40,958 bases of DNA from Spirochaetales bacterium. Its GTDB lineage: Bacteria > Spirochaetota > Spirochaetia > Treponematales > Treponemataceae. Position numbers and translations under genes: made by a program. This document shows positions 33,948-36,629 of this stretch, in pieces. Where the stretch lies: assembly GCA_003246335.1 (NCBI GenBank), contig QKAR01000064.1, forward strand, positions 1 to 40,958, written 5' to 3'. Under the pieces are notes generated by a model. That model was not told the DNA's origin. It did not search any database and was given only the letters and a program-made list of their open reading frames with translations. Positions within the stretch are counted from its first letter, which is position 1. Every line of letters starts with the position of its first letter.

Positions 33948-36629
33948 TCAAAAAGTCGCGGTCGTTATCGACGAAATGGTATAATTGTACTCCCGTTCAT
34001 TGATCGTGAATGTGAGCGTCTCGCCCTCGCGATGGTTGAGAATGGCGTTGCCGAACGGCGACATGTAGGAAATAACCGAATTGTCGGGATCGGATTCCCA
34101 CGGCCCGAGGATCGTGTATTTCTCCTCTTGCTTCGTGTCGTTGTTCAGCAAGTGCGCCACGGTGCCGAAGGAAACGCGCGCGACGGTAACCGTCGTCGGG
34201 TCGAAAATTTGCGCGCGGTCGATTTCTTCCTGCAGCCGCGTCGCGGTCGCGTTCAGTATCGTCTGTCGTTCCTTCGCGGCTTTATACTCCGAGTTCTCCC
34301 GCAAGTCGCCGAGCGAAAGGGCGAAGCCGATTTCCTTCGAGTTCGCGGGAACCTCGACCTCGATGATGTTCTGGAGAGTTTTTTTCTTTTCCTCGAACAT
34401 TTTCGAGGTGACGATCAAGCCGCGCGTGACGACCGTTTTTTCCTCGACGCCGAAGAACTTAAATCCTTTGTGGATTTCGAGGATCTTATTCCTCAGTTTC
34501 ATCTTTTCGGCGGGATCGAGGTCCTTCACGTCGTCGATCAGCGTATACAGGCGCGTGATGGTGTCGACGTCGCTCTTGAGCATGTAAGACTCAAGGAGAT
34601 TGTCCTTGCCCAGGAGTATAGTCTGGATTTGCCGGTTAATTTTGCGGTTTTCGGTCGTTTCGCGATGGTTCGCGATCTCGCGGAACGTGACGTCGAGTAT
34701 GTGGATAAGCGTTATGAGCTGTTTCTCGTAGGGAATCGACAGCTCCTTAAACCAATCCGCGTCCTGCGCGTTCTTGAAGAACCAAATGACGGCTTCGCGG
34801 TAATCGCGATAGTTTTCGTAGCTCAGCGCGGCGAGGGCTTTGACTTTGTCGGTGTACCCCTCGCGGATCAGGGCGTCGATGATCTCGTTTGACAGGACTG
34901 TCGGGAAAAGCTTCACGAAAACGTCGGCCCAATCGGGCAGGAAGTTCTTGATGTGCATCAAGTAGCTGCGCTTCAGGTCGTTATCCTTAATGGCCGTGTA
35001 CACGAGCGAGGGATTCTCGATCTCAGAGAACAAGTCGGAGAAATTAAACTGTAGGCCGGGATTCAGATGCGGGTGCTTCGCGACTATTTGCTTCACGACT
35101 AAGTAGGACGCGATCGTTTGCTCGTTAACTTGGTTAAACGCCTTCAGGTATCCGGTGAAATACGTGAACATCTCGGCGAAATATTCCGAGTCGGGCTCGG
35201 CCTTTTCGGAGAAGGTCATGAGAAGGTCGATGCGCGCGAAGAAATTTTTCTGCGCCTTAAATTCGTTAAAGAGCTTTTCCTCGACGGAGATCGGCCGGTC
35301 GCGCACGACGAAGAGGTCAATGTTCGTCGGGTTAACGCCGAATCCGGGATCGTCTTTGAGGATGGCGCGCGCTTTCGTGCTCCATCCGGTCCACTCGTTG
35401 GCGGTGAGCACGGACGGCACTAACTCGGCCTTAATGTGCTTGAGGTCGCAATTATTGTCGTAGCTCTTGATGATGGTGCGAAGGGCCCACGAGGGGTCTT
35501 CCTTTACTTTTGAGGTAAGTTTTTCTTTCTTCCAAATCGACTTAAGCACCCAAATATGGTCCTTGCTGAGCGTTTGAAGGGCGTTAACCGCCATTTTGAG
35601 GCTCATCGTATGACCGCGTTTTTTCGCGAAGTCGATCGTTATTTCGTCGTTCTTGACGCTCGCGATTCGGCCGACGCCCCAAGATCGATGGAAGACGAAA
35701 TTGCCCGCGTCGAACGAGATATGCTTCTCGAACTCGCCGATGGCCTCGAAAACGTTTCGCCAGCCCTGATTGAGGTTGGATGCCTTGATGTATTCGTCGA
35801 GTTGGCTATGCCCGGCGTGCTTGCCGCGGAAGCACTCGACGATTTCTTTTCGCGCCCAGGAATCCTTGTCGTCGTAAGAAAGGATGAGCTTGAGGATATC
35901 GATAGCGGTATCCCATTCGCTGTTATCCTTATAGTAGACGTAGACTTCCTGCATGAGCATCGCGCTGCGGTCGTCGCCCATGATTTTGGCGATTTTTCGC
36001 TGAACGTGATAGAAGAAATCAATTTCCTGCGGAATGAGCGCGACGAGGTGAGACCAAATCTCCTTGACGGAATTCCCTTGCTTTCGGTTAATGTACCGAT
36101 AGAGCGCCTTTTTGTAGAAATCGACGGCGGTCTCGCGGTCTCCGTCCTTTTCGTATTTTTCGGCGAGAAGCTTAGTAAGGTCCGCTTCCTCGTAGTCGAT
36201 CTTGACGATGCGTTCCCAAATCTCAAAAATTGCGTCGTTGTTCGTCTCTTTGTAGCAATCGGCGAGCGTTCGCAACGCGTATTTGGATTCACCGAATTCG
36301 AGGACGCGGTTGCACAGGTGCTCGACTACGGGGGTTTTATGGTTATCGATGAAAATGCCGATGAGCGTGACGAGCGCGGAATCGTCGAGTAATTGCTTCG
36401 AAAGCGCGCAAATGCCCGAAATGTACAGCGCTATGATGCTGTTTTTCGTGTGCGAAAGATGCTCGTCGCAGATCGCCTTAATTTCGTCGACGCTTTTTTC
36501 AGCTTGCGCGTCGCGGATAACGGAATCAAGATCCTTGAAATTATTTATAGAATAATTACTAATCGTCGCGCGGGTCCATTTTTCCTCATTCAGCATATCC
36601 TGGACGGATTTAACTAATGTGTCGGACAT
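33948..36629 (-). CDS. greA: GreA transcript-cleavage factor with long N-terminal fusion
   Basis: 893 residues, against about 158 for ordinary GreA. The C-terminal 150 residues (from about 743) are GreA: coiled-coil with LGDLRENSEYKAAKE, whose Asp (about 775) and Glu (about 778) reach the polymerase active site, then a C-terminal domain with SPFGNAIL. GreA rescues backtracked RNA polymerase by stimulating cleavage. Residues 1-300 are TPR-like helical repeats (EYALRTLADCYKETNNDA, ETAVDFYKKALYRY). Residues about 311-356 (FHRSWGVGRI...) resemble the CarD/TRCF polymerase-interacting domain. Residues 360-740 are helical and not assigned. Long GreA proteins occur in spirochaetes as I recall. AGGAG precedes the ATG, 23 bases after the TPR gene. 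Confidence 0.93.
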   Translation of the reverse strand: MSDTLVKSVQDMLNEEKWTRATISNYSINNFKDLDSVIRDAQAEKSVDEIKAICDEHLSHTKNSIIALYISGICALSKQLLDDSALVTLIGIFIDNHKTPVVEHLCNRVLEFGESKYALRTLADCYKETNNDAIFEIWERIVKIDYEEADLTKLLAEKYEKDGDRETAVDFYKKALYRYINRKQGNSVKEIWSHLVALIPQEIDFFYHVQRKIAKIMGDDRSAMLMQEVYVYYKDNSEWDTAIDILKLILSYDDKDSWARKEIVECFRGKHAGHSQLDEYIKASNLNQGWRNVFEAIGEFEKHISFDAGNFVFHRSWGVGRIASVKNDEITIDFAKKRGHTMSLKMAVNALQTLSKDHIWVLKSIWKKEKLTSKVKEDPSWALRTIIKSYDNNCDLKHIKAELVPSVLTANEWTGWSTKARAILKDDPGFGVNPTNIDLFVVRDRPISVEEKLFNEFKAQKNFFARIDLLMTFSEKAEPDSEYFAEMFTYFTGYLKAFNQVNEQTIASYLVVKQIVAKHPHLNPGLQFNFSDLFSEIENPSLVYTAIKDNDLKRSYLMHIKNFLPDWADVFVKLFPTVLSNEIIDALIREGYTDKVKALAALSYENYRDYREAVIWFFKNAQDADWFKELSIPYEKQLITLIHILDVTFREIANHRETTENRKINRQIQTILLGKDNLLESYMLKSDVDTITRLYTLIDDVKDLDPAEKMKLRNKILEIHKGFKFFGVEEKTVVTRGLIVTSKMFEEKKKTLQNIIEVEVPANSKEIGFALSLGDLRENSEYKAAKERQTILNATATRLQEEIDRAQIFDPTTVTVARVSFGTVAHLLNNDTKQEEKYTILGPWESDPDNSVISYMSPFGNAILNHREGETLTFTINEREYNYTISSITTATF

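Follow-up and report, generated by a model that had tools for sequence, protein, structure and literature searches.

GreA is usually regarded as a small uniform factor. The window analysed here, a 40,958-nucleotide stretch of DNA from a Spirochaetales bacterium, carries a greA gene whose product is 893 amino acids long, and we asked what the roughly 740 residues ahead of its GreA domain are made of and what they could contribute to transcription.

Architecture of the long GreA protein

The gene (positions 33948-36629, minus strand) was recognized by its open reading frame and by the NCBIfam model NF011309 (PRK14720), which covers residues 2-892 with 1128 bits (1127.9, passing the full-length cut-off of the family, 714 bits). 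The plus strand of the same interval is interrupted by stop codons. The chlamydial fusion model NF004969 covers residues 240-881 (E 1e-54), and the closest named relative is an uncultured Treponema (71% identity), which makes a Treponemataceae-like host probable. Since the homology to NF011309/PRK14720 extends from end to end, the fusion is not an accident of assembly; an assembly artefact or a frameshifted fusion was ruled out by the same architecture in homologues from hundreds of genomes. The source assembly, 91% complete, yielded a single GreA.

Pfam placed GreA_GreB_N at residues 739-808 (E 4.8e-17) and GreA_GreB at 818-889 (E 1.1e-21), so that the approximately 740 preceding residues reported in the first-pass annotation were borne out. 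The profile and structure matches delimit a complete GreA, comprising the coiled coil and the C-terminal domain, at residues 738-891 (33957-34418, minus strand); the FKBP-like C-terminal domain scored above the cut-off of PF01272. The GreA part of the predicted model matched E. coli GreA (1grj) with a Z of 16.3 and an rmsd of 2.3 over 150 residues. In the acidic tip DLRE (residues 775-778; 34296-34307, minus strand), D775 and E778 are equivalent to D41 and E44 of E. coli GreA; the former is kept in 41/41 and the latter in 40/41 long-GreA homologues, and the tip acids are retained across six phyla. Because the domain is complete and its tip acids are conserved, we infer a GreA-type cleavage role.

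The full protein was modelled with AlphaFold2 using 41 aligned homologues as input. The mean pLDDT was 88.1 and the pTM 0.64, a value low relative to the pLDDT, which suggests that the domains are not in a rigid arrangement. The model consists, in order, of paired helices (residues 1-304), a barrel, helices with a wing (366-446), further helices up to residue 720, a weakly predicted stretch (728-736), and GreA; a fold search with the whole model returned mostly TPR and GreA matches. The paired helices and their TPR-like matches define a predicted TPR-like solenoid at residues 1-304 (35718-36629, minus strand), in agreement with the helical repeats that had been proposed for about the first 300 residues. 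The second helical region predicted by the model, residues 447-720 (34470-35291, minus strand), shows the lowest conservation of the folded parts, with a mean pairwise identity of 0.27. Residues 721-737 (34419-34469, minus strand) probably form a flexible linker, as judged from the low model confidence (pLDDT below 50 at 728-736).

Predicted barrel and winged helix

Residues 305-357 (35559-35717, minus strand) are predicted from profiles and structure to form a Tudor/RID-type barrel with the signature H314-x-x-W317-G-V-G-R-I, in which GVGRI corresponds to residues 318-322. The barrel is small and five-stranded (strands 311-314, 318-326, 329-334, 340-343, and 352-354). When folded alone, the module spanning residues 296-450 reached a pLDDT of 88.3 and a pTM of 0.79; its Foldseek E-values were weak (best 0.013), and CarD (4kbm) occupied the first row. 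In VIA-align 2 comparisons, in which Z differences within 1 were counted as ties, the barrel matched the C-terminal domain (CTD) of Thermus thermophilus UvrD (7egt) with a Z of 7.5 and an rmsd of 1.4 over 47/47 residues at 32% identity, the Tudor domains of UvrD1 (9dqs, Z 7.4), UvrD (7egs, Z 7.4; crystallised with the RNA polymerase [RNAP] lobe), and PcrA (5dma, Z 7.0), and CarD (4kbm) with a Z of 6.8.

The sequence profiles gave the following picture. DUF3553 (PF12073; cut-off 20.3) scored 22.6 bits against the fragment and 18.0 bits in the whole protein, over only 23 of its 50 positions, while CarD_TRCF_RID (PF02559) reached 17.1 bits at best, under its gathering cut-off of 23, and PcrA_UvrD_tudor (PF21196) 16.4 bits, under its cut-off of 23.9. 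Specific membership in CarD was ruled out on this score. Among 20 homologues, matches at E up to 1 were found in 15 for CarD_TRCF_RID (best E 1.3e-4), 15 for PcrA_UvrD_tudor, and 12 for DUF3553, and 10 shuffled Tudor segments produced no match to any of the three profiles. The two top chains in a PDB search with the Tudor-segment profile were UvrD (7egt, E 0.044) and PcrA (5dma, E 0.18). According to our reading of the segment-profile alignment, H314 and W317 align with H681 and W684 of PcrA, which are among the residues picked for mutation as likely RNAP contacts (Sanders et al. 2017, PMC5397179). In the 41 long-GreA rows, H314 is kept in 35 and W317 in 33; the mean pairwise identity of the Tudor segment is 0.49, versus 0.43-0.46 for GreA.

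The segment is thus predicted to be a Tudor of the RID superfamily, at least as close to the RNAP-binding Tudor of UvrD and PcrA as to CarD. The first-pass annotation had likened residues 311-356 to the CarD/TRCF domain; the RID-type fold was found there (Z 7.5 to 7egt, 6.8 to CarD), but we refer it to the RID superfamily rather than specifically to CarD because the Z-scores of UvrD, PcrA, and CarD are tied.

The stretch after the Tudor, previously described as helical and unassigned, is indeed helical for the most part but begins with a predicted winged helix at residues 366-446 (35292-35534, minus strand), with helices and a wing in the model and matching folds. W413 is kept in 41/41 and W416 in 39/41 long-GreA rows. 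With VIA-align 2, the winged helix matched FoxP3 (8sro) with a Z of 8.7, chains 8x6g_E (Z 8.6) and 6zfb_D (Z 8.3, rmsd 2.1 over 79 residues), which we take to be the delta chain of RNAP complexes, and the NMR structure of delta (2krc) with a Z of 6.8. A sequence search of the winged helix for HARE-HTH or RNAP delta gave no match at E up to 10. The model thus resembles the N-terminal domain of RNAP delta, and forkhead domains match it equally well; homology to delta is not claimed, the likeness being structural and without sequence support. Z values within 1 being ties, the scores single out no one Tudor family for the barrel and no one nearest relative for the winged helix.

Distribution, split lineages, and the upstream TPR gene

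Long GreA had been noted as known in spirochaetes, and it is, as the named PRK14720 family, but the long form turned out not to be peculiar to them. The share of sampled genomes with a match to a profile of the Tudor-winged-helix module is 377/393 for Spirochaetota, 90/92 for Chlamydiota, 64/96 for Verrucomicrobiota, and 50/99 for Planctomycetota, and additional loci were found in Acidobacteriota and Fibrobacterota. Every genome listed for the window's own family has exactly one GreA match, and the long form is the sole GreA match in four of the six non-spirochaete genomes checked. Two planctomycete genomes carry a second, short frame (166-172 aa) with a weak match to the module profile (G619:C154:25933-26316 and G587:C102:14816-15187).

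In a tree of 90 GreA domains, in which the stand-alone GreAs are a sample, the 48 long-form rows, drawn from six phyla, all lie on one side of a branch with 100/99 support, and the stand-alone GreAs on the other. This supports the view that the fused GreA domains trace to what appears to be one ancient fusion. The sole short row among the long forms (L087) comes from a long gene broken in frame, of which it is the detached end. At that locus (5001-7688) the long greA lies in two frames, as pieces of 659 and 208 aa, which reflects either a genuine break in the frame or an error of sequencing.

In some lineages the two parts are separate. Family f29, with low-GC genomes near 3 Mb (probably Brachyspira, as we assume), and family f57 encode a separate protein of 729-746 aa that stops at the point where a GreA domain would be expected to start; a ninth split locus (L172, family f31), whose start is uncertain, stops ahead of GreA as well. 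The split protein retains a match to NF011309 (residues 4-730). In the three f29 genomes checked, GreA is a separate gene of 154-156 aa more than 150 kb away (in one example, G009, the two lie at 152 kb and 330 kb of one contig), and four f29 stand-alone GreAs grouped with ordinary GreAs in the tree. A further genome (G163, locus L168), 98% complete, has the N-terminal part and no detectable GreA match. The simplest history would be an ancient fusion whose GreA domain was later lost, its place being taken by a canonical GreA; the order of these events is our inference. Since the N-terminal part is kept in the split lineages unattached to GreA, tethering GreA is not its only role there. Its polymerase-binding-like folds, the apparently single ancient fusion, and its survival as a separate protein together indicate that the extension probably has its own function, and the split lineages constitute a natural test of its role without GreA.

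Directly upstream of the long greA, 23 bp before its start, lies a gene for a 312-aa TPR protein (36653-37591, minus strand), which we propose as a partner of the N-terminal part. In 49 loci a relative of this gene sits immediately upstream in the same orientation, at a distance of -32 to 123 bp; the 49 do not all represent independent events, as some loci are near-copies (L043, L081). At two other loci (L046, L047) one gene separates the TPR gene from that of the N-terminal part. At the search sensitivity used, the TPR neighbour was not found at Leptospiraceae-like, Sphaerochaetaceae-like, and non-spirochaete loci. It adjoins in eight of the nine split loci, -4 to 45 bp away, and in L172 the two frames overlap. 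Because the adjacency persists where GreA has left, we link the TPR neighbour to the N-terminal part; the upstream TPR gene lends indirect support to the earlier idea of protein scaffolding. On the other side of greA, 16 bp downstream and on the same strand, lies a gene for a vWA-domain protein (31757-33931, minus strand), kept mainly in Treponema-like loci. The wider neighbourhood (29125-40332) comprises tgt, a HEAT-repeat protein, greA, the TPR gene, rpe, a second TPR protein, and a hypothetical protein, in an order partly conserved in many Spirochaetia loci.

Possible docking on RNA polymerase and relation to known factors

The reading that we prefer, though with confidence evenly divided, is that long GreA is a Gre factor held on RNAP by a docking and scaffold module, with a presumed contact outside GreA. 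The GreA module (residues 738-891) would enter the secondary channel, where D775 and E778 would promote cleavage of backtracked RNA, as in ordinary GreA, and the short flexible linker would join it to an N-terminal module that retains it on the transcription complex. In that module, the Tudor (residues 305-357) may dock on the RNAP beta subunit as UvrD, Mfd, and CarD do, if the predicted fold is a guide to the contact. The delta subunit binds between the beta' shelf and jaw (PMC7749165), and by fold resemblance the winged helix (residues 366-446) might lie near the beta' jaw and shelf or downstream DNA, the place of delta in Bacillus. The solenoid (residues 1-304) would recruit another protein, most likely, to judge from gene order, the TPR protein encoded upstream. 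Elongating polymerase would in this way have GreA at high local concentration, and its state would be linked to the ligand of the TPR pair.

Several observations count against this reading: TPR scaffolds outside transcription look similar, W317 is not invariant among the homologues, the delta/forkhead tie lacks sequence support, the split lineages keep the N-terminal part apart from GreA, and the spirochaete RpoB stretches read did not show the PcrA motif. The PcrA Tudor recognises a peptide of RpoB (beta), the helicase interaction motif (PMC8318588). A search of the source assembly (G000, 91% complete) gave no rpoB match, while all 14 control genomes were matched, so rpoB is missing from the assembly, and polymerase partner sequences were taken from the genomes of relatives. 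The motif, searched as [VIL]DxxTGE[VIL][VILT], was not found in the seven spirochaete RpoB stretches read (L140-L142, L144, L145, L147, L149) and was present in one acidobacterial RpoB (L146). Given these stretches, a PcrA-type beta peptide was set aside, and a docking site would have to differ from that of PcrA.

We also put forward, tentatively and as more doubtful than probable, that the N-terminal part and the upstream TPR protein constitute an ancient, hitherto unrecognised elongation-complex factor common to Spirochaetota and the Planctomycetota-Verrucomicrobiota-Chlamydiota group, docking on RNAP through the Tudor and the winged helix, working whether or not GreA is attached, and linking the state of the polymerase to another machine.

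The strongest alternative, which we consider rather unlikely, is that the 740 N-terminal residues make up a factor in their own right, which acts with the upstream TPR protein and whose Tudor and winged helix have a target different from RNAP (nucleic acid, or a protein involved in translation, repair, or RNA processing); GreA would be attached only for co-location. The separate protein of f29 and f57 with its retained TPR neighbour, the distant GreA of the f29 genomes checked, and the GreA-less G163 all agree with it, as does the fact that the PcrA Tudor has several partners, e.g., UvrB (PMC8318588). Against it, nearly every lineage sampled keeps the part fused to GreA, which implies that it acts on RNAP, and the nearest Tudor folds are mostly RNAP-binding ones.

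An improbable alternative is that the barrel is a CarD/Mfd-type RID bound to the beta1 domain, so that long GreA, CarD, and Mfd would be rivals for a single site. The CarD_TRCF_RID matches among the homologues and the first place of CarD in Foldseek speak for it, and the absence of the PcrA motif from the spirochaete RpoB stretches read would favour another site; however, the UvrD and PcrA Tudors are tied or higher in Z and higher in identity, DUF3553 is above its cut-off in the fragment, and CarD-like and Mfd-like genes exist separately in the organism.

A search of the open-licence PMC subset (subscription papers may exist) found no functional study of the extra part, in keeping with the earlier remark that no function was known to be assigned to it. 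This would suit a passive, functionless remnant in a protein that is just GreA, a highly improbable view that we dismissed because the Tudor is conserved as well as GreA, and the extension is broadly retained across lineages and survives without GreA in the split ones.

Databases already have names for the architecture (PRK14720, PRK06330), and the family is, as far as we found, functionally unexplored; new here are the domain map, the shared origin and split history, and the partner gene. The map turns the 740-residue region into specific, testable contacts. Chlamydiae and most sampled spirochaetes, groups to which major pathogens belong, have a large Gre factor of several domains that shares features with other polymerase-binding factors, and transcript rescue in these bacteria may depart from the E. 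coli model.

E. coli GreA shares the fold and the coiled-coil tip acids but, at about 158 aa, lacks the extension. With the C-terminal Tudor of UvrD and PcrA (7egt, 7egs, 5dma) the long protein shares the predicted fold and the H-x-x-W-G-x-G signature, whereas the helicase is absent; with the RNAP-interacting domain of CarD and Mfd it shares the predicted fold and a GVGR-like turn, although it is itself neither CarD nor Mfd. The N-terminal domain of RNAP delta (6zfb_D, 8x6g_E) has the predicted winged-helix fold in common with it, but no sequence similarity was detected. HelD, an NTPase, is a single protein that reaches into the secondary channel with a Gre-like coiled coil and contacts RNAP elsewhere as well (PMC7749165); we regard it as a functional analogue and claim no homology, no NTPase domain being seen in long GreA. 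Within NF011309/PRK14720, "transcription elongation factor GreA," the protein of the window is in no way unusual; that family name gives neither domains nor a role for the first 740 residues. The chlamydial NF004969/PRK06330, "transcript cleavage factor/unknown domain fusion protein," is about 720 aa long in total, with less helical sequence at its N-terminus and the same order of Tudor, winged helix, helical region, and GreA.
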